Assembly (NCBI GenBank): GCA_024998595.1
Contig: JACOEK010000001.1
Span: 806,001 to 870,000, forward strand
Reading direction: 5' to 3'
Source: Nitrospira sp.
GTDB taxonomy: Bacteria; Nitrospirota; Nitrospiria; Nitrospirales; Nitrospiraceae
DNA length: 64,000 bases
Under the pieces are notes generated by a model. The model had not been told where the DNA came from. It saw only the letters and a program-made list of their open reading frames with translations, and did not search any database. Made by a program: the position numbers and the translations under genes. Within the stretch, counting starts at the first letter, position 1. Each line of letters opens with the position of its first letter. Positions 36,401 to 56,827 of this stretch are shown in pieces.

Positions 36401-37190
36401 ATTTCCTGAGAGTGACTTGGGCTGTCTCGATGCGGTCTTGTTCAGTCTTAGCTTCCTGGAGACGTACCTCTGCCGCAGTTCTTGCCTCATCCCCAAGTGG
36501 CTGATGCTCACCGAGTTGGGTTTCAAGGTCTCGTAGCGCTTCCCGCTCCTGTTTGGCTCGGGCGAATGCGGCCCGCGAGATATCAGAGTAAATCTGGGTC
36601 CCTGTGATCTTTTCGAGGAGTTCAGCTCTGTCTTTTGAGCCGGCCTTTATGAAAGTGTCAAAGTCGCCCTGGGCTAGAAGGACTGATCGTCGAAATTGAT
36701 CGAAGCTGAGCCCGATGCGTTTTTGAATCTGCTGAAGCGTATCAGTCTTCTTGTCACCGATAATTGCGCCGGACTTGATTTCCGTGAGCGTGATCTTCTG
36801 CCCCTGAAGTTTCCCATTGGCTTTGCCCCGCGCACGATTCACTTCCCAACGAGATCGGTACCGCTGTCCATCCTGTGCGACAAAGTCTACTTCCGCATAG
36901 CCCGTGCCGGCGCCATGACGAAGAATCCCGCGTACGTCATCATATTTGAGCTGCTGCGAAAGATCGCCTTCGATCCGTCCAATTGATGCTCCACTCTCTG
37001 CTGTATCCATGCGAGGGAGCCGGTCAAACAGCGCAAGGCAAAGCGCATCCAGCAGGGTTGTCTTCCCAGCGCCGGTTGGACCAGTAATCACGAAGATGCC
37101 AGAGCTGCGGATTGGCTCTGTCTCGAAGTCGACTTCGAATGGGTCGGAGAGGCTGGCAAGGTTTTCGCCTCGGATCGCAAGGATTCTCAT
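33417..37190 (-). CDS. sbcC: SbcC nuclease ATPase subunit
   Basis: SbcC is the SMC-like subunit of the SbcCD double-strand nuclease that opens hairpins and trims protein-blocked ends. The 1257-residue protein has N-terminal Walker A GPTGAGKTTLLDALC near residue 38 and long coiled coils around a central CPVCGATEHP zinc hook near 620. The C-terminal ABC signature NLSGGERFLVSLSLALGLA and Walker B SLFIDEGFGALD complete the head. It overlaps sbcD by 4 bp, so the subunits are translationally coupled. Its place beside restriction-type genes on a mobile island suggests a defence role or protection of element DNA ends. Confidence 0.95.
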   Translation of the reverse strand: MRILAIRGENLASLSDPFEVDFETEPIRSSGIFVITGPTGAGKTTLLDALCLALFDRLPRMDTAESGASIGRIEGDLSQQLKYDDVRGILRHGAGTGYAEVDFVAQDGQRYRSRWEVNRARGKANGKLQGQKITLTEIKSGAIIGDKKTDTLQQIQKRIGLSFDQFRRSVLLAQGDFDTFIKAGSKDRAELLEKITGTQIYSDISRAAFARAKQEREALRDLETQLGEHQPLGDEARTAAEVRLQEAKTEQDRIETAQVTLRKWEDWHEVKSRLDTRLVEGNAALTQALALDRNAESDRATLAMAKKAFALRAEIETAAATGRRLADAGNAFVDAQEGERKAVEERDKAVLASNAAKDERDKERAAYDAIGPELDKAQRLDALIESAKVDLADLADLLGKSSKGKDTAHDAVTEVERTLKATRDQRENDGRWLEDHKAVEALSVRMKDVERDLSEQLVLTTDITSTGSIIQQLALDVEVAKTSLREKESVVAPLQDRDHKLDEQIATLRQIAGAIDASAVEARRDTLMQVQTALDEAQNASENARKAHGAIITTNEEAAKQETLIQRASEVMTQMDAELPTDLARMEEARRSLDLSEAAGTEAAEHLRLKLEEGQPCPVCGATEHPVADVDRLLKARVLADHQRVAELESKVFSAQANRTRSETQITAAKDALEGVLQRRSSQEKELQVAFDKWQASVASVSTYCGEIGVSVPTFPEDAIGAESVVAINSARGTVEKLLSDAKETIKRATDAEAQIRIFSTDRENVRALLLTANADIVKLTDEEHDKVSKAGMLQATLQGTKQNLASLYSRLDTALAPVFPNWQNQITSTDEPFVGICSNLVNDWHKCRRRHEMTAADISRLEADLEGKRATLKGLETAIAETQKRHADKKDELNGHNSERILIIKGRPVGEVRTEYRKRWEATEKLWNEAEHKKSMAEQIAAGMSSNALATRKTAEAARIDHESAEALLTEKLLANTISRSQAESAITKGEAWVVAEQVRLDTLREAVAAARATLLERQQSAKEHEATDHPTQTREEIATALKEIEAQHSKASAAYVEASSVLLSDDQARSRTGKIKAALHERQQHARIWGQLDDLIGSADGTKFRRFAQSLTLNHLIRLANQHLNNLHPRYELQRAPGSDLVLQVIDRNMADEVRGVHNLSGGERFLVSLSLALGLASMSSNRGIKVESLFIDEGFGALDSNSLAMAVSVLEQLQATGRQVGVISHVEEMKERIAVKVEVTPVDSGRSTVQVVTA

Positions 37191-38428
37191 GTTGCGCCTG
37201 TCTGATCGTTCTCCGACGCTGAGATGCTCGTCAGCACTTCGTCAAAGGCGCTTTTGAGCTCCGTCGCCGGCTCGACTCCGTATTCCTCAACATGTCGACG
37301 AGCGAACACATGGGCCGGCTCCAGCGTGTTTAGCTCTGTGTCTCCTTCCACGGTGTCGGCCAATGCGCCTCCCTGTCCCTCAGTCTGTCTAACGATGCGC
37401 GTGAGCCGGACTGGCTTCCCCTCCAAGGCAGCTTCGATGCGTGACCGAAGCTCTGGCTCAGCTCCATCAAGCCGAACCGCGACCTCAAGGAATGGTCGGC
37501 GATCCTGCCCAGGATCGTCGATCTCAAGGCTGCGTAATTCATCCTCGACTTGGTCAAGCGGCGCTGCGCCAACTTCCGGAACCCGAAGGAAGGCGACGGG
37601 TCTCGGCGTCCGCACCAAATCTATTGCGAGGCTAGCTGTTACATCGAAATCGATCACAACAATACTGTGTTGATAGTCTCTCTCGGCGACCGACATAGGG
37701 AAAGGCGAGCCGGCATAGCGGATGACGGTTTGACCTGAGATAGACTGTGGTTTGTGGAGATGGCCTAACGCTACATAGGAGACACTTGCTGGGAAAAGAT
37801 CGGAAGAAACCGCCTCCTCGCCTCCTATGACGATTCGTCGTTCGCTCAGTTCCGATACTGCTCCCCCGCTCATGTGTAAGTGGCCTGTGACGATCAACGG
37901 GAGACCTTCGTGCATGACGTGGCCAGCCTCAATAACTTGCTGGTAGAGAGCGTGAAGGGGGCGTTCACCACTGGCTACTACGGGAAGATCTCCTGGGCGG
38001 AGGTAGGGGACAGCGGCGCACACAGCTCGGGGCGTTCCGGTCACGTCTTGTAGTTCAATCAGTGTCTGCCCTACAACCGGCTGACCATTATGCCGAGGCA
38101 TTCCCCCGATGAGGTGGACTCGGCTAGCATCGAGAAGGTGTTTCGGCAGCTCAAGTCGTGCAGCTGAGTCATGATTGCCGCCGATGAGCACGATTTGAAG
38201 GTGTGGACTTTCGGTTATTACTCGCCGTAAGAATCGATACAGGCGCTGTTGAGCGGGGATAGGCGGATTGACTGTGTCGTAAACGTCGCCCGTGATGATG
38301 AGTGCGTCAGCCTTTTGTTCGATCAGTTGGTTGGCTAGCCAGTCGAGAAACGAGTCATGTTCGACGCGCCGGTCGAAACCATGCAGTTCCTGGCCAAGAT
38401 GCCAATCGGAAGTGTGGATGACCCGCAT
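37187..38428 (-). CDS. sbcD: SbcD nuclease subunit
   Basis: SbcD is the Mre11-like metallophosphoesterase of SbcCD. The 413-residue protein begins MRVIHTSDWHLGQELHGFDR and has the metal motifs GDVYDT near residue 48, GGNHDS near 83 and GHLHMSGGA near 175. It is encoded just before sbcC with an ATGA overlap and 42 bp after the OLD-family gene on the same strand. Confidence 0.95.
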   Translation of the reverse strand: MRVIHTSDWHLGQELHGFDRRVEHDSFLDWLANQLIEQKADALIITGDVYDTVNPPIPAQQRLYRFLRRVITESPHLQIVLIGGNHDSAARLELPKHLLDASRVHLIGGMPRHNGQPVVGQTLIELQDVTGTPRAVCAAVPYLRPGDLPVVASGERPLHALYQQVIEAGHVMHEGLPLIVTGHLHMSGGAVSELSERRIVIGGEEAVSSDLFPASVSYVALGHLHKPQSISGQTVIRYAGSPFPMSVAERDYQHSIVVIDFDVTASLAIDLVRTPRPVAFLRVPEVGAAPLDQVEDELRSLEIDDPGQDRRPFLEVAVRLDGAEPELRSRIEAALEGKPVRLTRIVRQTEGQGGALADTVEGDTELNTLEPAHVFARRHVEEYGVEPATELKSAFDEVLTSISASENDQTGAT

Positions 38429-38470
38429 ATTGTGTCTTCTCAGTCGGCCATTTCCCCGCCAAGCACCTTT

Positions 38471-40399
38471 TTACTGCACACTGACGGCTGGATTCAAAAT
38501 CTCATTACACAGGCGTTCGAGGCTCGGCGATCTTTTGCCTGATTCCCAAGCTCGGGTAAGACAGAACCCGATATGCAGTGTATTTTTCCGAAGTCCCCCA
38601 GCATGGCCATACTGCTTGTCAGCTTCTGCTTGAAAGGCACTCCACTCAGCTGCACCAATTTCTGCTCTAACAAGCGAGCCAATATTTGATCGCCACATGA
38701 CAAACCCAGGGCCCCACAAGCTGGTTGTGGGTAATGGGTTTTCGTTTGCCTTGCCTAGAAGCGCAAGCAGGGCTTTGTTATCTTTCTCATGTTTTGCCCT
38801 CTTACCTGGATCCTGCTCATCGGCATCTGAATCAAAGACAACGAAGGTTGGAGTGCCGATCCGTTTGGCAATCACCACCGGGCGTAACATCTCACTCTTG
38901 GCATTCACGGGGACAATATGACAACCACTGCGGCGGTACTGGTCCCATTTATTGAGGAGATGAAGATAGGAGCTCAGATAAGCAACGTCTTCAAGACCTT
39001 CGACCAATATTAGGCGAGAGGTGAAAAACATCTCATTGAGCGAAGGCTGTAATGCTTGGTGGATTTTTGCCAGAACACCCTGTGGTTTGCTGGGCGTCTC
39101 TCCCGTGGCGGCTGCAACGGCATCGGCAATGTCTTTGTAGGACATATATGTGACGGTCGAGTGCTTTTGAATAGTATCTTTTCTGACCATGCGGACATCT
39201 TCAAATCCCTCGCCAGAGACGAATAATGGGCTATGTGTCGAAACAATAACCTGTGAGTTGGCCTTACTGAGGTCCTGGAGGACGGTGGCTAGATGTCTGG
39301 CCTGAGGGGGATGTTGATAGAGTTCAGGTTCTTCGCACCCTAAGATGAGTCGTGGAGTGGCCTTGTCATCGCTACTAGCGAGTTCATGCAACAGAGCAAG
39401 AAGATAGGATCTCTGAAGGCCATGTCCGAACCTGGGGAGTTCACCCTCGAAATTACCCTCTCCTGCGATGATTCTTGCTAATGGTTCTTCGACCCGCACC
39501 GATTTATCAGGATCCTGACGCCACTCAAGCTTCAGAGTGGCGTCTGGGTGTGCCCACTCGGTTAAGCGGGTCTGGAGTGAATCTGAGAGCTCCTTCAAAA
39601 CCTCCTGATTCTTATCGAGAAGGTGTTGATATTGTTCCTGCATCCCAGTGCGAAGGGCTTTGACGGCTTCTTCAAAATTTGTCTTTGCCCGGACCGTACG
39701 TGCCAGTAGTTTGCCGAGGGCTGTGTCTCTGGCCTCAAGCTGTTCCGTGGCCGCATCTTTAACTGCTGGGACGTAAACCCACTGAATGTATTGGGCAAGA
39801 CGGTTAGCACCCTTGGAGACCCCATAAAACTGATCTTCGCTCGCTAGCAATTCGCACAAATCGGGGTGGTCGGTTTCGTACTTGCGAAGAGCCTCGATCA
39901 TAGCGTCTTTCGTACCTGGCGAGGGAATGTCACCAAAGTTTCTCTGGATCTCGGAGTAAAGAGTTCTCAGGTCAGAGACCCTCTTATTATCACCAACGGC
40001 TCGGAAGAACTCTTTGAACCCCGGCATGGCGAGCCGCTGGCCGTACTGTTTAACCTCGGCTTTTCCTGTGGCTTCATTGAAAGTAGCAATTGCGGAAACA
40101 ATGAGCTTTCCCTGACGATAGTAATTGGAAAAGTCCTGCTGGGCTTCAGGGCTTAAGTCTGTGAATGTGACAGTAATCTCTATTGGTTCAGCGGTATTCT
40201 TTTGATGAAAATCCTCACGATCGAGCTGACTTAGGTCAGTGCCGGAGTTTTCGGTTTCACGGAAAAAGACGTTGAGGGCACACAAGACGGTCGATTTACC
40301 AGAGCCATTTGGCCCCACTAGGCAAGTGTAGTCATTGAAAGGGACGGTGACGTCGGCAAAGGATCGGAGATTCTTAATGCGTACTGATTCGAGTCTCAT
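38471..40399 (-). CDS. OLD-family ATP-dependent endonuclease (ABC ATPase plus TOPRIM)
   Basis: OLD proteins join an ABC-type ATPase to a TOPRIM nuclease and act in phage defence (P2 Old, GajA). The 642-residue protein has Walker A VGPNGSGKSTVLCAL near residue 31, a long helical middle, Walker B LGCEEPELYQHPPQA and the STHSP loop, then the TOPRIM motifs LILVEGLEDVAYL near 466 and FVVFDSDADE near 523. No UvrD-like helicase is adjacent, so this is not a Gabija pair. It lies divergent from the SNF2/methylase operon and upstream of sbcDC on the same strand, suggesting a joint DNA-end-acting module. Confidence 0.9.
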   Translation of the reverse strand: MRLESVRIKNLRSFADVTVPFNDYTCLVGPNGSGKSTVLCALNVFFRETENSGTDLSQLDREDFHQKNTAEPIEITVTFTDLSPEAQQDFSNYYRQGKLIVSAIATFNEATGKAEVKQYGQRLAMPGFKEFFRAVGDNKRVSDLRTLYSEIQRNFGDIPSPGTKDAMIEALRKYETDHPDLCELLASEDQFYGVSKGANRLAQYIQWVYVPAVKDAATEQLEARDTALGKLLARTVRAKTNFEEAVKALRTGMQEQYQHLLDKNQEVLKELSDSLQTRLTEWAHPDATLKLEWRQDPDKSVRVEEPLARIIAGEGNFEGELPRFGHGLQRSYLLALLHELASSDDKATPRLILGCEEPELYQHPPQARHLATVLQDLSKANSQVIVSTHSPLFVSGEGFEDVRMVRKDTIQKHSTVTYMSYKDIADAVAAATGETPSKPQGVLAKIHQALQPSLNEMFFTSRLILVEGLEDVAYLSSYLHLLNKWDQYRRSGCHIVPVNAKSEMLRPVVIAKRIGTPTFVVFDSDADEQDPGKRAKHEKDNKALLALLGKANENPLPTTSLWGPGFVMWRSNIGSLVRAEIGAAEWSAFQAEADKQYGHAGGLRKNTLHIGFCLTRAWESGKRSPSLERLCNEILNPAVSVQ

Positions 40400-40582: not shown

Positions 40583-43474
40583 ATGCTTACCCCCTACCAT
40601 GCCAAATATTTTGCCCACGACCTGACTCGCCGGGCTGCAAGTGGCATGGATAGGTTGTCTATGTCATTGTTTGATGCGTCCGTAGACCTGAATCCCCACC
40701 AGATCGAAGCTGCCCTGTTTGCATTACAGTCGCCTCTGTCAAAAGGAGTCATCCTGGCCGACGAAGTCGGCCTTGGGAAGACTATTGAGGCAGGTATCGT
40801 ACTCTGTCAGTTCTGGGCGGAGCGCAAGCGCCGGTTGCTGGTGATCTGCCCGGCTTCGCTGCGCAAGCAGTGGGCGATGGAGCTGCAGGAGAAGTTCAAC
40901 TTGCCCACGCGGGTGCTCGACACCAAAGCCTACCGTGAGGCGCAACGGAGTGGGCGCGCGCCTCTGAACGAGAAGGCTGTGCTCATCATGTCCATGAACT
41001 ACGGAAACGCGTTGCGGGAGGAACTGAAGAGCATCGCGTGGGATCTCGTCGTCATTGACGAAGCGCACAAACTGCGCAACGCGTATCGGCCGAGCAACAA
41101 GGTCGGTCAAGGCATCCGCTGGGCGACCGAGGACTGTCGCAAGCTCTTGCTCACGGCCACGCCGCTGCAGAACTCACTGCTCGAACTGTACGGCCTCTCG
41201 ACCCTGATTGACGAGCACCTGTTCGGGGATCTCAACTCCTTTCGCAGTCAATACGCCAGCGCTGGCAGCAGCATCAGCGATCTGCGTCAGCGCCTCTCGG
41301 GCTTCTGCAAGCGCACGCTACGCAATCAGGTCACCGAGTACATCCGCTACACCGAGCGGCGGCCGATCACGCGGCCGTTCACGCCAAGCGACGACGAGCA
41401 CGCGCTCTATGAGGCGGTGTCCGGGTTCCTGCAGAGCGAGGATAGTTACGCGCTCCCTCAGCGCCAGCGTCACCTGACTGCGCTCGTCCTACGCAAGCTG
41501 CTGGCGTCGTCATCACAGGCCATCGCTGCCACGCTTGATAAACTGCGAACACGTCTCGAAACCCTACGCGACGAGAAGGTGCAGGACGACGCGGAGTTCA
41601 CTGAGGCGCTCATTGAGGCGGAGGAGCTCGAAGACGACTTGCTTGACGAGATCCTTGCGGAGCCAGACGAAGCCGAGGCCGAATTTGCACCACGTACCAT
41701 CGACCGGCAAAAGCTGCGCGACGAGATCGACATCCTGCAGCGGCTCGCCAACTGGGCGCGCCGCATCGGCATCGACACCAAGACAAGGACACTGCTCACC
41801 GCACTGGAGATCGGATTCGCACAGATGGCGGCGACGGGCGCGGCGCGTAAGGCGCTGATCTTCACCGAGTCACGTCGCACCCAGGAATACCTGAAGACCT
41901 TCCTCGAGTCGAACTGCTACGGGGGCCAAGTCGTGCTCTTCAACGGCACCAACGGCGGGCCGGAAGCCACCGCGATCTACGAGCGCTGGGTAGAAAAGAA
42001 CCGCGACGCCGGACGCCCATCTGGTTCACGCGCCGTGGATGTGCGCACTGCGCTCATCGAGCATTTTCGCGATGATGGCTCGATCCTGCTCGCCACCGAG
42101 GCGGCGGCGGAAGGCATCAACTTGCAGTTCTGCTCGCTGGTCATCAACTACGACCTGCCCTGGAACCCGCAGCGTATCGAGCAGCGCATCGGACGCTGTC
42201 ACCGCTACGGACAGAAGCACGATGTGGTCGTGATCAATTTCCTGAACGAACGCAACGAGGCGGACCGCCGCGTGCTCGAGCTGTTGGGCGAGAAATTCAG
42301 CCTCTTCAACGGCGTCTTCGGTGCCTCTGACGAGGTGCTGGGCACGATCGAGTCCGGCGTGGATTTCGAGAAGCGCATTCTCGCGATCTACCAACAGTGC
42401 CGCACGCCTGAGGAGATTGACGCCGCGTTTCGCACCCTGCAGGTAGAGATGGACGAAAGCATTCGCACGCGGATGGACGATACGCGTCGAACACTGTTCG
42501 AGTACTTCGATGAGGACGTGCATCAGCGTCTGCGGCTACAGCTTGACGACGCGAAGGCCCAGCTCGACCGGTTTGGCCAGCGCTTCTGGTCGCTGACCCG
42601 CTTCATGCTCGACGACTGCGCCCGCTTCGACGATGCCGCGCTGGCTTTCGACCTCGAGCTCCCGCCGAACGCGGAGATTACGGCCGGACGCTACCACCTA
42701 ATCTCCAAGTCCTCCCCTAAGGCGGCGCAGGGAGGCGACGGTGGGGGCGAGGAGTGCAGCCAGTTTCTCTATCGCCTCTCGCATCCGCTGGGAGAGCACG
42801 TGGTGGAGACTGCGAAGGCCCTCGTCATGCCAGCGGCGCAGATCGTTTTCGATGTGTCGCATCATTCGGCCCGCATCCATGCCGTCGAGGCGCTGCGCGG
42901 CAAGAGCGGATTCCTCACGCTGACGCGCCTGGTGATCGAGTCCTACGAGCGCGAGGAATATCTGTTGTTCTCCGGGTTCGACGCAGCCGGCGCCGGGCTC
43001 GACCAGGAGACGATGGAGAAGCTCTTTGGCTGCGCCGGCCGTGTAGAAGGCGACGCGTCGATTCCATCCGCCGAACAGAAACGCCTGAACGCCGAGTCGG
43101 AGCGCCATGCCAAGGCTACCGTGAGTCGCTCGCTCGAACAGAACAGTATTCACTTCAACCAGGCGCGCGAGAAGCTGGAGAAATGGGCCGACGACATGGT
43201 GCTATCGACAGAGAAAGCGCTCGCCGACACCAAGGAGCAGATCAAGGCACTACGGCGGCAGGCGCGGCAGGCGGCCACGCTCGAAGAGCAGCATGAGATC
43301 CAGCAGCAACAGCAGAAATTGGAAAAGCAGCAGCGCCGCCAGCGGCAGGAGATTTTCAAGACCGAGGATGAGATCATGGATAAACGAGATTCCCTGATCG
43401 AATCGTTGGAACGGCGGCTTGCCCAACACACCGCGACCGACGTACTCTTCACGATCCGCTGGGCCGTGCAGTAG
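40583..43474 (+). CDS. SNF2-family helicase of the island methylase operon
   Basis: The 963-residue protein is a superfamily 2 SNF2/RapA-like DNA translocase. The ATG at 40583 is preferred ([17 protein letters not shown], an opening recalled from related proteins), though an earlier frame exists and no strong ribosome site is seen. Motifs are [14 protein letters not shown] (Walker A) near residue 65, [13 protein letters not shown] near 157, and the C-terminal helicase core [20 protein letters not shown] and [11 protein letters not shown] near 535. The last 100 residues are a coiled coil rich in Gln. A helicase next to a large methylase recalls DISARM class 1 DrmD and related sets, but the other DISARM genes are missing. 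Confidence 0.88.
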
Positions 43475-43518
43475 GCATGCCACATGCCGAATATGACGAA
43501 CCAAGGATACAGGACGCG

Positions 43519-46500
43519 ATGAGCCAGAAATACGAGAAGCTGAAGACCCTCCTCAAAGAATTGTTCCAACTCGACCAGCCGGATTTGGATTTTGGCCTCT
43601 ACCGCGTCATGCACGCCAAGAGCGCCGAGGTGTCGCAGTTCCTCGACAAGGACCTGCTTCCACAAGTGAAAGCGGCGTTCGGCCAATACAAGAGCGCCGA
43701 CAAAGCCGAGATCGAGAAGGAGCTGGCCAAGGTCATCGCAGGCATCGAGTCCGCGGACATGGATCCCGCACAGTCACCCAAGGTCAAGGACCTGCGCGCT
43801 CGGCTGGCGAACGACGCCGTGGACATCGGCGCGCTGGAGAGCGAGGTCTACGACCACCTCTTCAGCTTTTTCCGCCGATACTACGACCAGGGCGACTTCC
43901 TAGCCAAGCGTGTCTACAAGCCAGGTGTTTATGCCATCCCCTACGAAGGCGAGGAGGTCACGCTCCACTGGGCCAACAAGGATCAGTACTACATTAAGAC
44001 CAGCGAGTACCTGCGCGACTACGCCTTCCGTCTGCGGCCGGACGACGACAAGCAGCCGATGCGGGTGCACTTCCGGTTGGTGGACGCCACCGAGGGCGAG
44101 CACGGCAACGTGAAGGCCGTGGAGGGTAAGGACCGCGTCTTTATCTTGGCATCCCCCGGCGAATCCGGTCGCGACTTCATTACCGAGGAAGATGGAGAGC
44201 AGGGCAAGGAACTCATCATCCGCTTCGAGTACCGCCCGGCGACGCTCACCGACTGGCCCGACGACGTCCGCGCGGGCAAGAGCAAGCCACCGGCGCAGAA
44301 GGACCTGACCCCGCTGGCAGCCAAGTGCGTGCTGGCAGTGACGGACGTCTCACTCACCTCGTGGATCGTGGAGCTCAGCAGGCTAGATTCAACGGAAAAG
44401 GAACCTGATCGCATAGTTCTCCAGAAGCACCTCAAGAAATACTCCGACGTCAATAAATTCGACTACTTCATTCACAAGGATTTGGGCGGCTTCCTGCGCA
44501 GAGAGCTGGATTTCTATATCAAGAACGAAGTCATGCACCTGGACGACGTGGAGAATGAGACCTCGCCGCGTGTCGAGCAGTACCTGTCGAAGATCAAGGT
44601 CATCCGCAAGATCGCCGGCAAGATCATCGCCTTCCTGGCCCAGCTCGAGGACTTCCAGAAGAAGCTGTGGCTGAAGAAGAAGTTCGTGGTCGAGACGCAA
44701 TATTGCATCACGCTCGATCGCATTCCTGAGGCATTCTATCCCGAGATCGCGGCCAATGACGATCAGCGGGAGGAGTGGGTGCGGTTGTTTGCGGTCTCCG
44801 AGATGCAGGGAAATTTAACGACGCCTGGCTATAGCGTACCGGTGACGATGGAATTTTTGAAAGCTCATCCTACGCTTGTTGTAGATACGCGCCATTTCCC
44901 TTCAAGCTTCTGCGAACGTCTAATTGAAAGCATGGACGCGCTAAAGATCCATTCGAGTGGGGTTTTGCTTCATGGTGAGAATGAGGACGCACTGAGATTG
45001 CTCAACCATGTGAACCGTGATTCGGTTATGTGCATATATATAGATCCACCCTTTAATACGGGCGATGACGGATTTATTTATAAAGACAACTATCAGCACT
45101 CAAGCTGGTGTTGCCTTCTCATGGAACGACTTCAAGCGGCGCATCGGCTATTGGCCGAGGACGGGTGTGTTTCTATCAGCATCGGTCAGGAAGAGATTGG
45201 GCCTCTTCAGGGCATTTGCGATGAAGTCTTTGGCCGAGCCAATCGGCTACCACTTGTAACGGTGAAACGGGGAAGTGTTACTGGTCACAAGGTAATTAAT
45301 CCGGGAGTCGTCAACATCTCGGAGTATGTACTGTGCTACGCCAAGAACCGCGCGAGATGGACTGGGAATGACGTTTTCGCAGAGCGGGAGCGTGACCAAC
45401 GGTATAGTACTTTTATTGTTGGTCGAGAAAGGTCACCGAAGGAATGGTCATTTACATCACTGCTCGACGCATTCTCCTCCTTCCATAAAACGCAGAAGAC
45501 TAAAATACGAGAGCACTTTGGCGATGCCTTTGAGGCCGAGATGGTCAAATTCGTTAGAGACCATGCTGATTCGGTTGTTCAGCCTGTCACAGTTGATAGG
45601 GCTGGCGTTGGCGCTGACTTTTTAGCTGCGGTCATGAATTCAGAGCAGAAACAAGGAGAAGTTCTGATTTATCGTCGCGAATCACATTCTGACGTTTATC
45701 TCATCGACGGAAAAAAATTGATCTTCTACGCCGACAAGTTGGTGAAGGTGGGAAATCGTCGAGTGACCGCTGAAAGAGCGTCAGATATTTGGACCGACGT
45801 TCTGCCAAATGATCTGCACAACGAGGGTGGCGTTGAACTTCGCAAGGGGAAGAAGCCTGAGGCCCTTGTGGCGCGTCTTCTCGAGATGGGGTCTAACGAG
45901 GGTGATGTCGTCCTAGACTTCTTCGCCGGTAGCGGGACGACGCCTGCAGCAGCTCAGAAATCAGGACGGCGCTGGATTGCGGTTGAGGCGGCTTCCTATT
46001 TCTATGAAAAGCCGCTACGTCGGATGAAGAATGTCCTATTTGGTGAGGGTCGTGGTGTTAGTCAGAATTATGGATGGATTGGTGGCGGGGCTTTCAAATA
46101 TCAGCGTCTCGAGTCCTACGAAGATGCATTGAACAATCTGGAAGTACAACGCAGTAAGGTGCAGCAATCTCTTTTGGCGGCGGTTGATGCTCAGGGCCCG
46201 GATGGGCTCAGGGAACAGTACCTGCTCCGCTACATGCTCAATGTGGAGACGCGCGGTAGCCAGTCGCTCCTTAATGTGCAGGCCTTTACCGACCCAACGG
46301 CCTACACGCTCAAGGTCAAGCGGCCCGGTTCGGATGAGAGCCGCGAGGTGAACGTCGATCTGTTGGAGTCCTTCAATTGGCTGATCGGCCTCACCGTGAA
46401 ACACATCGCCGCGCCGCAGATGTTTAGCACCGTGTTCGAGCGCGACAGCGAGAAGCGCCTGCACCTGAAGGGCCGCCTCAAGCAGAATGCGGACGGCCCG

Positions 46501-46773
46501 TACTGGTTCCGTACCGTCACCGGCACCACGCCCGACGGCCGCAAGGCACTCATCATCTGGCGCAAACTCACCGGCGAGCTGGAGCAGGATAATTTGGTGC
46601 TCGACGAGTGGTTCACAAAGCAAGGCTACTCAGCCAAGGACAGTGAGTTTGACCTCATCTACGTGAACGGCGGCAATAACCTGGAGAACCTCAAGACTCC
46701 CGACGACACGTGGAAGGTGCGGCTAATCGAAGAGGACTTCCATCGGTTAATGTTCGATACGGAAGGCGTGTGA
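43519..46773 (+). CDS. Beta-class adenine-type DNA methyltransferase with long N-terminal extension
   Basis: The 1084-residue protein (ATG 43519, AGGA upstream) has amino-methyltransferase motifs in beta order. [13 protein letters not shown] is near residue 510, a variable region with likely target recognition follows, and [14 protein letters not shown] is near 801, as in type III Mod enzymes. The first 440 residues are an unusual extension with coiled helices ([17 protein letters not shown]) that may contact the helicase. It would mark self DNA. Its middle (about 44,815-46,150) is clearly AT-richer than both ends: the sampled line 45,001-45,060 is 40% GC, line 46,441-46,500 is 70%. This suggests exchange of the catalytic/recognition block. 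Confidence 0.9.
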
Positions 46774-46775
46774 AC

Positions 46776-49700
46776 GTGGCCGGAAAGAAGTCTGTCACGA
46801 AGAAGGCCGGAGCAAACAAGAATCCTGCTGTGCCTTTCGCCCGCAAGCTGGTGCTGAACCAGTGGTTGCTGTCGCTCTTCAACGTCAAGCGCTTCGAGGA
46901 CCTGGCCGAGTATCTGCGCAACGAGGCGCTGGAAGGGCTGGACGAGAACAACATCCATTACTTCCACCACGCGCTCACGGCACAGTTCTTTAACCTGACG
47001 CAGCTGCCCACCGAGCTGCTGCTTGAATACGACCAGAACATCGTCACGCACACGCAGCGGCTGAACGAACGGCGTATCACGCATGGCGAGGCGCCGGTCG
47101 TCTGGAAGTATTTCCAGTATCTCACGCTGCTGTTTGCCGAGATCTACCTCGACCGCTATTTCCGTGATCCACAGACCTTGCTGAAAGAACTGAACGCGCA
47201 AGTGGCGCTCTACAACACGGACCAGCTCGAGGCCGATCAGATCGCGCCCTTCGACGAGACCGTCGAAGCCTGGCCACAGATCAATAAGCTCGCGTTCTGG
47301 ATGGCCACCGGTAGCGGCAAGACGCTGCTCATGCACGCCAACATCCTTCAGTACCAGCATGCGCTTGAGACGCACGGCCGCGGTGGCCAGCTGAACCGCA
47401 CGCTGTTGCTCACGCCCAATGAGGGACTGTCCCTGCAGCATCTGCGCGAGTTCCAGACTGCGGGCATCGACGCGGAGCTGTTCAACAAGGACGGGCGCGG
47501 GCTGTTCAGCGGGCGCGCGGTTGAGATCCTCGAAGTGACCAAGCTTCGCGAGGACATGGGCGAGAAGACGATTGCCATTGACGCCTTCGAGGGCAACAAT
47601 CTTGTGCTGGTGGACGAGGGGCACCGTGGTGCCAGCGGTGGCGAAGAAGGCGCGTGGATGGATGCGCGCAAAAGGCTTTGCGAGAAGGGCTTCTCATTCG
47701 AGTACTCAGCCACTTTCGGGCAGGCAGTCAAGGGAAAGCCCAAGCTCACCGAACTCTACGCGAAGAGCACGCTGTTCGACTACTCATACCGTTACTTCTA
47801 TGGCGACGGATTTGGCAAGGACTACCAGATCCTGAACCTCGACGAAAAGACGCAGCAGAACCACCTGGAGCTGTATCTGGTGGCTTGCCTGCTGTCGTTC
47901 TTCCAACAGCAACGGTTGTACCGCGAGCATGGCATGACGTTCCGTCCGTTCAACATCGAGAAGCCCTTGTGGATCTTTGTCGGCGGGAGCGTGACGGCGA
48001 CGCTGGCCACGCGGGATGCTTCAGACATCATAGAAATCCTGCAGTTCCTGGCCCGCTATGTGAGAGACCGGTCGGTCAGTATCCAGCGCATCGAACGCAT
48101 ACTAAACCAGGGGCTCGAAACAGCGACGGGCAAGAACTTGTTTGCTGGGCGCTTTACGTATCTCAATATGTGCGGACTCTCTCCAGCACAGGTCTTCGAG
48201 GAGACGCTCTCGACGCTCTTCAACGCGCCGGGCGGCGGCCAGCTCTACGTCGAGAACCTGAAGGGGGCGGCCGGCGAAGTGGCGCTACGCCTGGGTGCAG
48301 AAAATGACGCGTTCGGCGTCATCAACGTCGGCGACGACGCCAAGTTGGTGAAGCTGTGCGAGGAGAACGGTCTCGCCACTGGCGACCGGGAGTTCACGGG
48401 CTCGCTGTTCCACGAGATCAACAACACGTACTCGACGGTGAATCTGCTAATCGGCTCGAAGAAGTTTACTGAGGGTTGGAGCAGCTGGCGTGTCTCCACC
48501 ATGGGCCTGATGAATGTCGGCAAGGGGGAAGGGGCACAAATCATCCAGCTCTTTGGGCGCGGGGTTCGTCTCAAGGGCTACGGTGATCCTTGGAGCCTGA
48601 AGCGGACTGGCAAGGTTCAATTGCCTGATGGAATGGACCGTCCAAAGCACATCGGATTGCTTGAAACGCTGGGTATCTTCGGTATCCACGCAGACTACAT
48701 GGCACAGTTCCGCGACTTTCTCTTAGAGGAAGGTTTAAAGGTTAATGAAGAGCACATCGAATTCTTGTTACCGGTAATCAAGAACCTGGGCACCCAGAAG
48801 CTCAAGACCATCAGGTTGAAGAAGACTATCAACGGTGTGAGCACCGAGTTCGGTGATGCCTTTCGTAAGCTAGGTCCTGTGCCGACCCTTACTCTACCGG
48901 ACGCCTATCTGCAGAAGAACCAGGTGGTCCTTAACTGGTATCCCAAAATTAAGGCGATGAAATCAGCGGGGGTTGTGGGGGGAGACGGCGACGCGGCACC
49001 GAATCAGACTCGTCTTACAAAGAAGCATCTGGCGTTCCTCGATCTGGACCGACTGTACTTTGAGTTAGAACGGTTTAAGGCAGAGCGAGGCTGGTACAAC
49101 TTGAATATCTCACGGGATGAGATCGGGCCGCTACTTGAGGAGCAGAGCTGGTACCAGTTGCTCATTCCAGCTGAGGAAATGGCGTTCGATTCTTTCGCGA
49201 AAGTCCGGTTGTGGGAAGAAATTGCGCTGTCGTTGCTCAAAAAGTACACCGAACGCTATTACACCTTCCGAAAGCGAGAATGGGAGGAGCCTCATCTCGA
49301 ATACCAAGACCTATCCCCGAACGATCCCAATCTGCTCGGCATTGGCCAGTCGGCAGAGGATTCGTACTATCGCATCCTCATTGAGCAATCGCAGGAGGAG
49401 ATCGTTGCCAAGCTAGAGGAGCTGAAGGGTCTTATCGAGAAGGGCACGCTCAAACCATGGGAGTTCCACGGCCTCAAGGCGATCTGGTTCGGACAGCACC
49501 TGTACCAACCGCTGCTGTACCTCGATCAGAATATTGTCGAGATCAGCCCGGTTGCCCTTAACAAGGGGGAGAAGCAGTTCATAGAAGATCTGAAAGCCTT
49601 CCACGACGGTGCGGGTAGCTATTTGGCCGGTAAGGAACTGTATCTACTTCGTAATCTTAGCAAGGGCCGCGGTGTCGGCTTCTTCGAAGCTGGAAACTTT

Positions 49701-50054
49701 CATCCAGATTTCATCCTCTGGTTGCTCACGGATGATAAACAGCATGTCATCTTCGTCGATCCGAAGGGCATCCGAAACATCGGTCCCACAGATCCAAAGG
49801 TCCAGTTCTACGAGACCATTAAAGAGATTGAAGGCCGTCTTGGCGATCCCAAAGTATTACTGAACTCATTCATCATTTCCTCAACGCCGTCTCACACGAT
49901 GAAGATGCTCTGGGCGATGGACAAGAAAGTGATGAATGAGCGGCACATCTTGTTCCAAGAGGAGGACCAAGACACCTACATCAAATCCATGCTTGAGACC
50001 GCTCTAGCGGGTGATGTACTAACCGCAATCCTTGTCGAAAAGACTACCTCATAA
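46776..50054 (+). CDS. Type III-like restriction helicase/nuclease (Res)
   Basis: The 1092-residue protein is a DEAD-type superfamily 2 enzyme with a nuclease tail, the usual partner of a Mod enzyme. Walker A is [14 protein letters not shown] near residue 175, motif II is [10 protein letters not shown] (DEGH in place of DEAH) near 278, motif VI is [14 protein letters not shown] near 590. The C-terminal [10 protein letters not shown] with IFVDPKGI fits a PD-(D/E)xK nuclease near residues 975-1000. GTG 46776 is chosen because GGAAGG lies nine bases upstream; GTG 46770 would overlap the methylase stop. From about 48,590 the base composition shifts towards AT. Confidence 0.9.
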
Positions 50055-50078
50055 AACCAGCAACCATTCTCGCTATTT

Positions 50079-50636
50079 ATGAGAATTGCAATCATCGGAT
50101 GGGGCTCTCTGATCTGGGATCCCCAAGCCCTCGACATTGAGAACGAATGGCACACCGATGGGCCAATGTTGCCTGTCAAGTTTGCCAGAGTTTCTAAGGG
50201 TAAGAGGCTCACTCTCGTTCTGGTGGAGGGTGCTCCCCTACAACAAACGCTATGGGCGATTAGTCATAAGACCACACTGGCAGAAGCCGTCACGGATTTG
50301 GTAAAGCGGGAAGGAACTACGGATTCCAATATCGGCCGCTGGCCATGCACGGACAGGTTCGACATTTTTGAAAAGCGCATGGCGTCAATTGTGGCTGCAT
50401 GGGCACAAGAACGAAAGCTTGATGCTGCAGTTTGGACAGCGCTTGGACCAAAGAAGCCGAATGGCGAGAATGGACTCGCTACAGATGATGAGTTAATCAA
50501 CTACCTCCGAGCTTTGGCAGAGCGTGGGGATGATGCTGCCGCCAAAGAGTACATCGAGAAAGCACCAACGCAGATCAAAACGCCGTTACGTGCCAGGATC
50601 TGCCGAGAGTTGGGGTGGTACAGATTGGGGAAATAA
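50079..50636 (+). CDS. GGCT-fold-like protein after the Res gene
   Basis: The 185-residue protein opens with IAIIGWGSLIWDPQAL, which resembles the nucleotide-loop-like YGSLxW opening of gamma-glutamylcyclotransferase (GGCT/ChaC/AIG2) folds, then PVKFARVSKGKRLTLVLVEG, a second region typical of that fold. The catalytic Glu is not identified with confidence. It starts 24 bp after the Res stop and shares TAATG with the next gene, so it belongs to the same operon. A role in restriction or defence is inferred from position only. Confidence 0.55.
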   Translation: MRIAIIGWGSLIWDPQALDIENEWHTDGPMLPVKFARVSKGKRLTLVLVEGAPLQQTLWAISHKTTLAEAVTDLVKREGTTDSNIGRWPCTDRFDIFEKRMASIVAAWAQERKLDAAVWTALGPKKPNGENGLATDDELINYLRALAERGDDAAAKEYIEKAPTQIKTPLRARICRELGWYRLGK

Positions 50637-51217
50637 TGCGCCCAGCCTACGTCAGAGTGGATCTAGGTGATCCACAGGACAATGAGCACCCATCCTTCGT
50701 TGTTTCGCCTGTTCCATTTCTCTATCGGGAAGGAGAAATTCTCATCCCTCCCAAAGAAAGAACGTATACGGCCCAATCCTATTCTGAGCTATGTGCACTT
50801 TTACAAACTGGTTTCAAGATTTCCGAGGATATGATTCCTCATGCTCGATACTTCAAGCCCTCCAAAACAGAACGAGAAAATGGTGGAGGGCATATCTACA
50901 AGACGGTACCGAAAGGGGCCGGGGAACCAGAATGGCGAACGAGGGCCCGCCAAGCTCTACTAGACGCAGTTGATGAAGCCAGTCAGTCCTTGCTGTTTGG
51001 AAACGGAAAAGTCGTAGTGAACGGGAAGGATTGCTCCACGATCCAGGCATTACGGCAGGAGTTAGAAACACTCGCAGAGGACGCCGGCGGCAAAAGGCGA
51101 ATTAAGGGCGAAGCGTATCAGCCAGACTATGATGTTCTTGTGGAGGAAGCGCTTCAACGTGACACCTACTTGCTCGATTATTCAGGGCTCCCTAAGACAA
51201 GCAAGCGGGCCAAATGA
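50636..51217 (+). CDS. Unknown protein at the end of the methylase/nuclease operon
   Basis: The 193-residue protein starts at ATG 50636, overlapping the preceding stop by one base (TAATG), so it is translationally coupled. I do not recognise a family. It is soluble, with an N-terminal beta-rich part (AYVRVDLGDPQDNEHPSFVV) and a helical C-terminal part (TIQALRQELETLAEDAGG). No signal, membrane segment or catalytic motif is visible. Its fixed place after the GGCT-like gene suggests a linked two-protein accessory unit. Confidence 0.6.
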   Translation: MRPAYVRVDLGDPQDNEHPSFVVSPVPFLYREGEILIPPKERTYTAQSYSELCALLQTGFKISEDMIPHARYFKPSKTERENGGGHIYKTVPKGAGEPEWRTRARQALLDAVDEASQSLLFGNGKVVVNGKDCSTIQALRQELETLAEDAGGKRRIKGEAYQPDYDVLVEEALQRDTYLLDYSGLPKTSKRAK

Positions 51218-51864: not shown

Positions 51865-52368
51865 TCAATTTCTTAATCGACGGCTGACAGGAAGTGGAGA
51901 TTCTCTGATCTTCTTGAGCATTTTCTCCACGCGAGTGTTTCCTGCCTTAGTTCCAAGAATGGATAGCGGGGTTTTGTTCTTGAGTGTGCGGCTTTTTCGT
52001 GTGAGCCACTCGCTGGCTTTGTCCTCGGTGCCAAACACTTCGACGGCCTCTCGCTGAATCCAGAAAGCGTTCTCTTCTGCTTCGGAATCGCGCTTCAATG
52101 TTCCGGGCTGTCCACCTTTTAGGGATGCTGCCTCGTCTTTCGAGGCGGACATTTGATCAGTACGCATCGGCGGCAACCCCGTAGAGAGAAAGAAGACCTC
52201 ATCGACAAACATCTGCTGTGCGTGCGGCGGTAGTCTAAGTAACCCGCGCTCTAGCCAATTTTGTATAGCCTTGTTGGTAAGTTTCTTGATCCCACTAAAC
52301 TTCTTCACAGCCTGGCGATACGCTTGCATCATTCCCATTGTCATAACGAGAATTCCTCTCTGGCTCAC
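51865..52368 (-). CDS. Xre/MbcA/ParS-type antitoxin-like protein (toxin-binding domain)
   Basis: The 167-residue protein ends in the toxin-binding domain of Xre/MbcA/ParS antitoxins (AVEVFGTEDKASEWLTRKS, then LSILGTKAGNTRVEKMLKKI, the usual G-x-L-P/S-x-L-x-T-x-x-G layout). Partners are normally RES-domain NAD-degrading toxins encoded just downstream. Here only a 78-residue frame without RES motifs follows, so the toxin may be lost or the protein may be an orphan regulator. Several ATGs near the start leave the N-terminus uncertain. Confidence 0.7.
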   Translation of the reverse strand: MSQRGILVMTMGMMQAYRQAVKKFSGIKKLTNKAIQNWLERGLLRLPPHAQQMFVDEVFFLSTGLPPMRTDQMSASKDEAASLKGGQPGTLKRDSEAEENAFWIQREAVEVFGTEDKASEWLTRKSRTLKNKTPLSILGTKAGNTRVEKMLKKIRESPLPVSRRLRN

Positions 52369-52439: not shown

Positions 52440-53312
52440 TCATCGGGCATGTTCCCTTCGCCCGACAATGGCTGGCTGATGGCCTTTCCGATAGACATGG
52501 GATTGGGTCTCCCATCGAAAATAGTATTCGACCAGCCCGCGGTACTTGGGATTGTCGAGAATATAAGCCACGGTGCCTGGATACCATTTGCCGCCCCGCT
52601 TTGTAGCCACCTTCTCGTTATTCAGGTGCTCCACGATCTCCCGAAGACTGGAACCTTTCCTGCTTCGCTGGAAGATCTCTCGCACAACCTGAGCTTCCAC
52701 CGGGTGAACCGCCAATCCACCAACCAAATCCCGCCGATAGCCAAAAGGGACAGCCCCTCCAGCAAATCCACCCTGAGTCGCTTTCTCTACCTTTCCCGCC
52801 ATGGTTCGTTCTGTGATCGTCCGACGTTCCTGCTCGGCCATACTGGCTAAGACAGCAAAGAACATCGATCCCATGGAGGTGGCGGTATCGATCGGTTCGG
52901 TGACAGACCTGAGAACGATGCCATGCTCTTCCCGAAGGCGATTGGCCATGGTGACAGCGTAGAGGACGTTTCTTGCCAGTCGATCGAATTTCCAGACAAG
53001 GAGGACATCAAACGCTCCCATGTGGGCTAGCCTGAGAAGTTTCGAGAAGTTGGGCCGTTCTTCTGGCAACGACGCCCCTGATACTCCTCTATCGGAGATG
53101 AACCCCTTCAGCTTATATCCCTGAGATTTGGCAAACTCTTGGATGTGCCGCTTTTGTGCCGCCAGACCAAATCCACGAACGGCTTGCTCCCCAGTGGACA
53201 CTCGAAGATACCCCACGGCTCGCTTGGTCGTAGTGTCCCGCTTTTGCTGATAGACGATACGGCGTCGGAGACGTCGGACGCGGGCGCTCGTAGACACAGT
53301 TGCACCTGGCAT
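52440..53312 (-). CDS. Large serine recombinase-type resolvase/invertase
   Basis: The 290-residue protein has the resolvase catalytic domain with the nucleophile in GYLRVSTGEQ (Ser39), DRGVSGASLPEERP, VWKFDRLARN and a recombinase domain (GGFAGGAVPFGYRR, REIVEHLNNEKVATKRGGKW, VAYILDNPKYRG). It is short for a large serine integrase because the coiled-coil and zinc regions are nearly absent. Because the island ends carry the tyrosine recombinases, this enzyme probably belonged to a separate element or acts as a resolvase inside the island. The XRE gene lies divergently 103 bp away with a palindrome between. Confidence 0.88.
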   Translation of the reverse strand: MPGATVSTSARVRRLRRRIVYQQKRDTTTKRAVGYLRVSTGEQAVRGFGLAAQKRHIQEFAKSQGYKLKGFISDRGVSGASLPEERPNFSKLLRLAHMGAFDVLLVWKFDRLARNVLYAVTMANRLREEHGIVLRSVTEPIDTATSMGSMFFAVLASMAEQERRTITERTMAGKVEKATQGGFAGGAVPFGYRRDLVGGLAVHPVEAQVVREIFQRSRKGSSLREIVEHLNNEKVATKRGGKWYPGTVAYILDNPKYRGLVEYYFRWETQSHVYRKGHQPAIVGRREHAR

Positions 53313-54748: not shown

Positions 54749-56827
54749 CTAGTCAACCACTGTCCGTCGAGGCGTGGGATGTTTCGATTTATCGATGCCA
54801 TTTGGAAACGGAGGTACGGACCGAGTAGGTTGGATTTGAATCAACTGGATGCTGAGAGCGCGGTCAATATTGGCCATTTTCTCTTCGAGCATCTTAATCC
54901 ACTTGTCTCCGCCTGCCTCACCCGCTGCATTTCCTCTCATAATGCCAAGCGCGCGGGTCATGCTCGTCCGAAAAGTACGAAGTCTTTCTTCTTCTTTCGG
55001 ATCCATGGTCCGATGGTAGTGCTTACAGTTATCGAAGCATTGGAGGTACTTGGGACAGGGAGAAAGAGTAAAATCGTTACTGCAAATGCCCCACGGTGTG
55101 ATCTGAATACCCACGGCATGTGTACGCAGAAACTCCTCCGCTGTCGTCGGGTCATTTATAACGAGCGTATTATAAGTGGTTGTAAGAGCCCCATGAATTG
55201 TGCCTTTTTTTATGCTGTCCTTTAGAAACTGAATCTTTTCAGTAAAAGACAGATCTAATAGATTGCGGTGTGTTGCGGTCGATTCAGTAAGGGTTTTGTG
55301 TTGATACGTTCTGGTCTGATTCACACTTTTGCGATGCATGGCCCACGTTTGTTGGAGATCACTCATGCCGCCTTGGTCGTAAAGAGTATTTTTCCAGTGC
55401 CGGGCGGAATGAGTATTGATTGTAAATGGGCAGGGTTTTCCATCGGCCGTTCTGTCCTTGAGCCCTCGCCGCTCGAAAATTGAAAGCCGAGCGCGCTGCT
55501 TATTGCCTCCAAGGGCGGTCGCAATATCATGGTACTTAATAATCTCAGGGCGAAGATTATTTTGCCAATCTGCATTGAGCGAAAATTGTCCTTCAAATTT
55601 TACGGCGAGACAATCGCTTAAACACAGAATAGTCTGCCCGCGAGGCCCTGTCATTGGAGTCAGGCTTTTAGGATCGATGGCAAAGGTGGTCTCAATGTCG
55701 CCTGCCTTATACATTGAGTCACGTTGATGGGCCCATCGTACCCCCTTTTTAATGGGTGAAATCCCTCTGCTCCATAATTTTCGGGAAAGGGCAGGTCGCG
55801 TCGCCCCAGGGAAATAGGTCAAGAGTTTGCTTGTGCTTATATTGTCGGTTGATTTGTACGGCCAAAGTTTTCCAGGATGAGTTTCAAGCCATTTGGCCCT
55901 CTTACGAGCGGGCTCGCATAAATCCGCTAGCTCCTTGACGGCTCGCTGAATGATGGGCACGTCTTGATCCGGCAGCCAGTTAATCATGAACTTATAGCCC
56001 TTCTCTGGGTAAAGTCGGATTCCATGTCGTTTAACGATGTCACCTGTCGTAGGATTACGAAGAGGTAGGCCATCGCTACCTTTAACTGTTTCCTCCACTA
56101 AACAATTCTTTGGAATCAACAAAGTTTCGTTGATGCGGTTACCGAGTACAATTTGCAAATCGCACGCACGTAGAAGAATGCGCTCATTGTCGTCAATCGG
56201 ATCATTTGTGCATTTTGCATAGGCTGCGATAGCCTGCATAGATGGTAGCTTACGTTCCTCTTCTCTCCCATCGACGCTTTGGCCGCTCTTAGATGCCCTC
56301 GCTCTTCTATGCCCCTCACATCTAAAGGGATGTATGAAGTCTAGAGGCGGATTCGTAATCCCGTGATAGTCCATTTCACTTGCTATCGCTTTTACTGTAG
56401 AGGCAAAACCAGCAAGGTATACGAAGGTGATAGTTTTAGCTTGTTGTGAAGCGATAAGGCCCTCCAAGTCGGAAAGCTTAATGTCACAGGGGTTTTGTGT
56501 GCCCCGTCGTGACAGTGCGTCACTAAGAAGGCGTAAGGCACGCATGTAATTGGAAAGCCGGCCAAAGCTAAGATTACGGCTGCTCCATATCATCACAATG
56601 ATGGCTTTGGCAAAGTCGCTATAAATGGGCGGAAGAGGTGTAAACGGACGATTGCTCCGCACATTTCCAATTCCAAACACCAGCTTGTGATTTCTGTGCA
56701 CCGTTTGTATTGTCGGAAGCCATTTCCCGACGTCCCATGATGATGCTTCCCACTCGATTCCAACGGAGAGCCCAGACAACACTGCCTTAGCTTTGCGGAC
56801 AAGGCCCGCGAGGTTTGAATTCATCAT
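54749..56827 (-). CDS. Tyrosine recombinase, third of the trio (692 aa)
   Basis: The 692-residue recombinase has the catalytic Arg in LGNRINETLLI near residue 229, HSARH near 475 and the Tyr in TRTYQHK near 507. A C-terminal cysteine-rich stretch (CSNDFTLSPCPKYLQCFDNCKHYH) looks like a zinc-binding module. Catalytic residues thus appear complete. Its start overlaps the middle recombinase by 4 bp (ATGA). The size and zinc-like tail match TnpB of Tn554 and IntB of the strand-biased elements. It is AT-rich compared with host genes. Confidence 0.85.
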   Translation of the reverse strand: MMNSNLAGLVRKAKAVLSGLSVGIEWEASSWDVGKWLPTIQTVHRNHKLVFGIGNVRSNRPFTPLPPIYSDFAKAIIVMIWSSRNLSFGRLSNYMRALRLLSDALSRRGTQNPCDIKLSDLEGLIASQQAKTITFVYLAGFASTVKAIASEMDYHGITNPPLDFIHPFRCEGHRRARASKSGQSVDGREEERKLPSMQAIAAYAKCTNDPIDDNERILLRACDLQIVLGNRINETLLIPKNCLVEETVKGSDGLPLRNPTTGDIVKRHGIRLYPEKGYKFMINWLPDQDVPIIQRAVKELADLCEPARKRAKWLETHPGKLWPYKSTDNISTSKLLTYFPGATRPALSRKLWSRGISPIKKGVRWAHQRDSMYKAGDIETTFAIDPKSLTPMTGPRGQTILCLSDCLAVKFEGQFSLNADWQNNLRPEIIKYHDIATALGGNKQRARLSIFERRGLKDRTADGKPCPFTINTHSARHWKNTLYDQGGMSDLQQTWAMHRKSVNQTRTYQHKTLTESTATHRNLLDLSFTEKIQFLKDSIKKGTIHGALTTTYNTLVINDPTTAEEFLRTHAVGIQITPWGICSNDFTLSPCPKYLQCFDNCKHYHRTMDPKEEERLRTFRTSMTRALGIMRGNAAGEAGGDKWIKMLEEKMANIDRALSIQLIQIQPTRSVPPFPNGIDKSKHPTPRRTVVD

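Follow-up and report, generated by a model that had tools for sequence, protein, structure and literature searches.

We report that an operon of a Nitrospira sp. genome joins a DrmD/RapA-like SNF2 ATPase to type III-like Mod and Res proteins, and that this SNF2-Mod-Res set is a recurring unit whose core is kept in several bacterial phyla. The operon occupies positions 40583–51217 of a 64,000-nucleotide stretch of contig JACOEK010000001.1 (hereafter, the window). In type III restriction-modification (RM) families, Mod marks DNA and provides guidance, while Res cuts unmarked DNA. Such systems are characterised by adenine methylation of one strand at asymmetric sites and by cleavage that involves two sites. 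The explanation that we find reasonably probable is that the operon encodes a type III RM system that includes a dedicated SNF2 translocase, lies on a genomic island and ends in two locus-specific passenger genes. The operon would serve phage defence.

The operon consists of five codirectional open reading frames (ORFs) on the plus strand. The core comprises gene 1 (40583–43474; the SNF2 ATPase, 963 amino acids (aa)), gene 2 (43477–46773; the type III-like Mod, a beta-class methylase of 1098 aa) and gene 3 (46776–50054; the type III-like Res, with a likely but uncertain GTG start, its frame being open from 46710). Two cargo genes follow: gene 4 (50079–50636), encoding a 185-aa protein with a gamma-glutamyl-cyclotransferase (GGCT; ChaC-like) fold, and gene 5 (50636–51217), which starts with ATG and encodes a small protein of 193 aa. 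Since genes 1 to 4 are separated by only 2, 2 and 24 bases and genes 4 and 5 overlap by one base (TAATG, including the gene 4 stop), the five genes are likely a single transcription unit. A promoter and terminator scan gave match counts no higher than those in shuffled sequence. The longest frame of gene 1 begins at GTG 40469, 38 codons ahead of ATG 40583; however, its relatives open with the same [13 protein letters not shown]-type stretch as the ATG-40583 product, and ATG 40583 was therefore taken as the start. Thus, the five-gene operon that an earlier model-made note on this sequence (the original prediction) had placed at 40583–51217 was confirmed as real and operon-like, together with its start for gene 1.

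Linkage of SNF2 to type III genes

To define the genomic context of SNF2, we searched 395 genomes of the window's phylum and obtained 40 matches in 36 genomes, giving 37 examined loci, window included; three matches (G182:C84, G229:C17 and G380:C13) lay outside the counts. Four loci that end less than 2 kilobases (kb) downstream of SNF2 (G239, G261, G182:C22 and G249) were set aside. Among the 30 SNF2 genes at 43% identity or higher, window included, all 26 assessable ones lay near a type III Mod and/or Res, and 24 of the 26 near both. The two loci with a single subunit were G248, which has Res pieces only, and G183, which has Mod only before the contig ends. None of the seven SNF2 genes at 42% identity or lower, which form a sister branch, was near type III genes when tested against three type III families, with one of the seven loci (G305) having just 2.5 kb downstream. 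At L112, a locus of the sister branch, SNF2 is instead accompanied by a DrmMI/type IIG-like methylase and a GajB-like helicase, and another such locus (L117) has type I/II-like methylase pieces. A same-genus locus outside the 40 matches (L088) contained neither Mod nor Res over the 5.1 kb up to its contig end.

The same linkage was seen on plasmids. Our plasmid SNF2 search returned 45 records, and in all 13 that were viewed a type III Mod and Res were present in the same stretch. The 13 plasmids come from Pseudomonadota, Bacteroidota, Deinococcota and Planctomycetota; L003 and L089 among them are almost copies of each other, and the 13 do not include five partial Providencia matches. Six of these loci are not independent evidence, because they were first reached through Res, while the seven first reached through SNF2 (L127–L133) all had type III genes. 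The SNF2-Mod-Res plasmid loci found with Res were from Klebsiella, Blastomonas, Aeromonas and Conchiformibius, with SNF2 as the last gene in Conchiformibius. On the K. quasipneumoniae plasmid (L089:5849-8989), the annotation splits Mod into pieces, with SNF2 and Res remaining open.

The 43% identity threshold is not a clean one, as two plasmid SNF2 proteins at 40–41% (L132 and L133) also stand in type III operons; both fall on the type III-linked side of the tree. In a tree of 46 SNF2 proteins, built quickly and without bootstraps, a branch with SH-aLRT support of 100 split the 39 type III-linked proteins from the remaining seven. The 39 form one clade associated with three type III families, and five changes among these families are needed on the tree, which suggests that the SNF2 helicase has switched Mod-Res partners. 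We propose an SNF2-led type III group, defined by an SNF2 of this clade near Mod and/or Res, and the SNF2 was found in that position here. The original prediction that the operon is more than a type III system holds in this respect: SNF2 recurs as a unit with Mod and Res.

The three core proteins

Catalytic motifs are intact in the alignments of genes 1, 2 and 3. The gene 1 protein contains the Pfam domains SNF2-rel_dom (E 9e-33) and Helicase_C, and EVGLGKT, DEAH and [11 protein letters not shown] are present in all 13 aligned SNF2 rows. Its best model matches, in both PADLOC and the NCBI collection, are DrmD models, although its scores lie under the cutoffs (671.5 bits against 950 for DrmD_b, NF038318, and 279 bits against 610 for NF038317), and its closest solved chain is RapA. 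Gene 2 matches Pfam N6_N4_Mtase (E 1.4e-34) and PADLOC MTase_III (PDLC03646, 570 bits), and the solved chains closest to it are type III Mod proteins. Its motifs, DPPF at residue 523 followed by FAGSGTT at about residue 814, give the order of a beta-class Mod, with the DPPY-type motif ahead of the FxGxG motif. Gene 3 matches Pfam ResIII (E 2.5e-10) and PADLOC REase_III (PDLC03654, 724 bits), two REase_III models being its only PADLOC matches. At the level of motifs, it combines a superfamily 2 (SF2) ATPase (ATGSGKT, DEGH and GRGVRL) with a C-terminal PD-(D/E)XK nuclease (the nuclease-like motif HPDF...FVDPKG).

Comparison with known systems

The operon shares with the type III RM systems EcoP15I and EcoPI a beta-class Mod and a Res with an SF2 ATPase and a C-terminal nuclease motif. 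It differs from them in its dedicated SNF2 gene, in the cargo inserted in most of its relatives, and in the length of Mod, which is 1098 aa here but 644 aa in the EcoP15I Mod chain. With DISARM it shares an SNF2 resembling DrmD and a nearby adenine-class methylase; however, the Mod and Res here are type III-like, Mod is not DrmMI, and the curated DrmD cutoff is missed. DrmA, DrmB (DUF1998) and DrmC (PLD) were absent from the PADLOC matches listed for 15 island ORFs (the best 25 for SNF2, Mod and OLD), and the SNF2 cross-matched one DrmA model in its helicase part. DISARM membership was consequently rejected, in agreement with the original prediction, which had set the operon apart from that system.

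The helicase-methylase-ATPase (Hma) system, which had been offered earlier as a possible named match, has a similar three-gene outline. According to the available part of its description, HmaB is a 5-methylcytosine (m5C) methylase and HmaC an ATPase (PMC8565338). The match fails because gene 2 is a type III-like methylase of the N6/N4 class and gene 3 is a Res, and HmaB was not among the best 25 of the 59 PADLOC matches of gene 2. We assigned the operon to the type III kind because it has the sequence features of type III systems while the comparisons with DISARM and Hma failed. ARMADA type II also resembles the operon in having a RapA-like SNF2, a methylase and further helicases, its components being, in the text available, a BrxHII/RapA-like SNF2, a PglX-like methylase and a YprA-like helicase (PMC12458937). 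Scanning the operon and its neighbours against Pfam and PADLOC, without an ARMADA-specific model, revealed neither of the latter two.

There are precedents for restriction operons that contain toxin-like genes, including PrrC-PrrI. In the accessible part of Makarova 2012 (PMC3506569), RM operons with suicide genes carry toxin-like genes, AIPR is linked to type III systems, toxins are repeatedly displaced by other toxins, and a functional coupling of suicide and restriction is argued. That part mentions no SNF2 gene, and the inserts here include genes of several known defence systems. In the portion seen of Iyer 2008 (PMC2292703), MORC RM operons include SNF2 helicases and type III-like helicases, but in separate MORC-centred types and not as an SNF2 together with Mod and Res. 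An SNF2-Mod-Res operon is not described in the accessible parts of PMC12839542, PMC2292703, PMC12458937, PMC3506569, PMC8565338, PMC7251935 and PMC9142583, and the open-access literature, as far as its text was available, yielded no name for the SNF2-led frame. Since the search did not extend to subscription journals and supplements, a name may already exist.

Exchange of the Mod region and of cargo

The nearest relative of the operon (L038) is 80% identical in SNF2, 59% in Mod and 84% in Res. The lower identity of Mod is unevenly distributed: residues 1–180 are 65–91% identical, residues 541–780 only 3–30%, and residues from 901 onward 76–100%. The L038 operon carries a YhcG nuclease and a 23S-IVP-like protein, and lacks genes 4 and 5. 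Three further pairs of loci (L085/L086, L087/L096 and L087/L100) show the same kind of pattern, with SNF2 at 96–97% and Res at 95–96% identity, while Mod residues 151–350 are at 12–32%. L087 and L100 have no insert in common.

A script that scored 19 loci found inserts of at least 150 aa between core genes in 17 of them (SNF2-Mod interval, 16; Mod-Res interval, 4). Of the loci read by eye, L038, L040 and L044 have such inserts while L043 and the window do not, bringing the overall count to 20 of 24. By model, the inserts, many of which match models of defence genes, include YhcG (PDC-S02), SIR2 with HerA, IetS beside an AAA ATPase, OLD/AriA-like ATPases, PDC-S06 with an AAA_13 domain, AIPR, DUF2130 and GHKL ATPases; a helix-turn-helix (HTH)-peptidase M78 insert has a weak HigB-like match, and several further labels rest on similarity to model-identified inserts. 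Annotated plasmid cargo comprises AIPR and VapC in Deinococcus, an Abi protein in Salmonella and DUF262 in Rhizobium. An Aeromonas plasmid has an AAA ATPase with DUF4276, which we take to be PARIS-like. The DUF2130 insert at L086:11442-12758 (about 435 aa) has relatives, 74–95% identical, beside changing effectors in L087, L088, L096, L098, L099, L101, L104, L107, L110 and L118, and is perhaps a shared helper.

Genes 4 and 5

Relatives of gene 4, at 33–43% identity, came from 20 plasmid records and from 12 viral contigs, but gene 4 had no match in Pfam, NCBIfam or PADLOC and none by sequence in the PDB, where a profile search gave matches at chance level only. Among the approaches tried, only fold comparison was informative for its identity. 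The AlphaFold2 model, made with the twelve viral-contig relatives, has a mean predicted local distance difference test (pLDDT) score of 93.5. The best Foldseek match was a yeast glutathione-specific enzyme, with an E of 0.013 that is suggestive only; structure realignment (VIA-align) placed human ChaC2 on top (Z 8.8, root-mean-square deviation 3.5, 150 residues aligned). Ten of the best eleven fold rows are ChaC2, yeast or human gamma-glutamyl cyclotransferase, GGACT/AIG2-like proteins or YkqA, and one is the hypothetical LOC79017. The predicted structure thus supports a GGCT (ChaC-like) fold, as the earlier label of GGCT-like had proposed. Residues W8-G9-S10-L11 and W13 (WGSL.W), R77 and E78 are invariant in 13 sequences; E78 is the putative counterpart of the ChaC2 glutamate. 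Gene 4 shares with ChaC/GGCT enzymes the fold and the invariant RE dipeptide, and differs from them in having no sequence family match.

That gene 5 is a real gene is supported by one partial relative in genome contigs (51% identity over 99 residues), whose genome has no Res match. Within 269 genomes of the class, gene 5 was found only in the window and as one fragment, which sits at the corresponding position at the end of a contig and could be an identical record. No relatives were found in viral contigs, in plasmids or in 294 other genomes of the phylum, and the structure model (pLDDT 49) is too weak for use in assigning a fold.

Neither gene was present in any of 45 other SNF2 or SNF2-type III loci, some of which are cut by contig ends. 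Because they are absent from these loci while other loci carry other genes, genes 4 and 5 look like the cargo of this locus, positioned after Res. The earlier view of a five-gene set thus stands for genes 1–3, which are a recurring unit, but not for genes 4 and 5 as fixed members. Conservation of the Mod-Res pair alone, which had been named beforehand as the outcome speaking against the prediction, was met with a mixed answer, as SNF2 is conserved with Mod and Res while genes 4 and 5 vary.

Proposed mechanism and alternative explanations

If the operon is a type III RM system with a dedicated SNF2 translocase, Mod would methylate adenine in a short asymmetric site and guide Res, which would use its ATPase and PD-(D/E)XK-like nuclease to cut DNA lacking the mark. 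The role of SNF2 is presumably that of RapA/DrmD-type proteins: it would travel along double-stranded DNA, either clearing bound proteins or extending communication between sites, and may in this way let restriction work on DNA under transcription or replication. The passenger genes would be second-line effectors or modulators that vary by locus, here the GGCT-fold enzyme, whose substrates may be glutathione or gamma-glutamyl compounds, together with its gene 5 partner. By swapping the Mod recognition region and the passengers, one frame could face many phages.

Several observations weigh against this explanation. Type III systems function without an SNF2, and within the phylum none was present in the 2.4–7.5 kb upstream of eight Mod-Res loci that belong to the same Res family, so SNF2 is not essential to all. 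Its proposed role is reasoned by analogy with RapA/DrmD only. The last nuclease motif reads EPHG in 4 of 15 aligned Res proteins, the window's Res not among them, and the nuclease may therefore be altered in some relatives. Exchange is not total, since near-identical cores can share inserts: L085 and L086 have YhcG in common (95%) while their SNF2-Mod insert sets differ, and L087 and L096 have DUF2130 in common while their other inserts differ. Cargo is optional, as L043, L084 and L108 have no insert of at least 150 aa between core genes. Lastly, the plasmid relatives of gene 4 share no neighbour in the eight cases viewed, of which three (L060, L061 and L066) have named restriction or defence genes nearby and two others (L064 and L065) have DNA-repair genes nearby, so gene 4 may be a stress enzyme without a part in defence.

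The absence of SNF2 from Mod-Res pairs of the same Res family, together with the lack of conservation of genes 4 and 5 with the core, is what would be expected if an ordinary type III system lay in a defence island with SNF2 and genes 4 and 5 as unrelated neighbours. We consider this unlikely, as SNF2 adjoins type III genes in every assessable phylum locus and every plasmid viewed, the linkage spans at least five phyla with SNF2 mostly as the first gene, and a single SNF2 clade serves three type III families. The opposite extreme, a system of five parts that cannot do without the GGCT enzyme and gene 5, which might for example form an effector pair triggered by the restriction core, agrees with the 24-base gap, the TAATG coupling and the invariant putative active-site residues of gene 4. 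It too appears improbable, given that the nearest relative lacks genes 4 and 5 despite its similar core, as do all 45 related loci, and that gene 5 occurs in just 2 of the 269 genomes of the class, the second occurrence being the contig-end fragment. A DISARM derivative, in which a DrmD-like helicase and an adenine methylase were retained and DrmABC were replaced by Res, would account for the DrmD models being the best SNF2 matches and for the DrmMI/type IIG-like methylase adjoining SNF2 in the sister-branch locus L112; with DrmD_b reaching 671 of 950 bits, a Mod that is type III-like and not DrmMI, and no DrmA, DrmB or DrmC among the matches listed, bar the helicase cross-match, we regard such a derivation as highly unlikely.

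A bolder proposal, which we hold to be quite unlikely, makes SNF2 a general control subunit that serves three type III enzymes and licenses any inserted effector, to be fired when restriction is breached. The effectors would be SIR2-HerA, PARIS-like genes, IetS, YhcG and, here, the GGCT enzyme with gene 5, which would then form a new metabolite-targeting pair, for example a glutathione-depleting one. Returning to the SNF2-equipped type III system, its core appears to be a frame that can be reused to combine bacterial defences. If this is true, plasmids and islands spread a helicase-led frame whose operon takes in genes of other defence systems, while model libraries score such systems as plain type III subunits and a DISARM-like DrmD; DUF2130, genes 4 and 5 and similar inserts could then be ranked as candidate new defence genes. 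The presence of suicide genes in type III operons has already been published, as the accessible part of PMC3506569 attests. Loci with the same helicase and Res but a different specificity region and cargo would be a natural experiment on the restriction-suicide coupling proposed there in 2012.

Other arrangements in first place were also observed. In the Priestia and Athalassotoga operons, a non-SNF2 gene annotated as an ATP-dependent DNA helicase comes first (L007:3192-6098 and L090:2253-5039). Four SNF2-less Mod-Res operons (L045, L047, L049 and L051) have in common a gene of about 375 aa ahead of Mod, and these four and L052 all have a 571-aa gene after Res, both genes being likened by length. 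This L045-type layout is possibly another conserved arrangement.

Genomic island and neighbouring genes

The operon is carried by a genomic island of 27,152 bp (32477–59628) inserted inside an O-methyltransferase gene. Its placement on an island follows from the alignment of window positions 32476 and 59629 to adjacent bases in all three same-genus genomes compared (21 hold the right-flank gene). The insertion point lies in the FIDADK motif of the O-methyltransferase gene, and a full homologue of this gene is present on the island at 32629–33276, as if to resupply the broken target.

Divergent from the operon, SbcC-like, SbcD-like and OLD-family genes stand in a row at 33417–40399. The last of these, an ATPase-TOPRIM gene on the minus strand (38471–40399; AAA_15, OLD-like_TOPRIM; PADLOC Old, 183 bits), is likely to be a defence gene next to the operon. 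An AAA ATPase whose annotation is repair of double-strand breaks flanks the operons on plasmids of Sphingopyxis (L133) and Rhizobium (L128), and the L133 flank also has an annotated exonuclease.

At the right end of the island, three overlapping minus-strand genes (54749–59518) are perhaps a three-recombinase integration module: two match tyrosine integrases, and the 692-aa gene has no match in Pfam or PADLOC. A CcrB-like serine recombinase of 290 aa, about half the model length, is encoded at 52440–53312 and is probably a remnant. Between it and the operon, positions 51865–52368 encode an antitoxin-like protein with an Xre/MbcA/ParS C-terminal domain.

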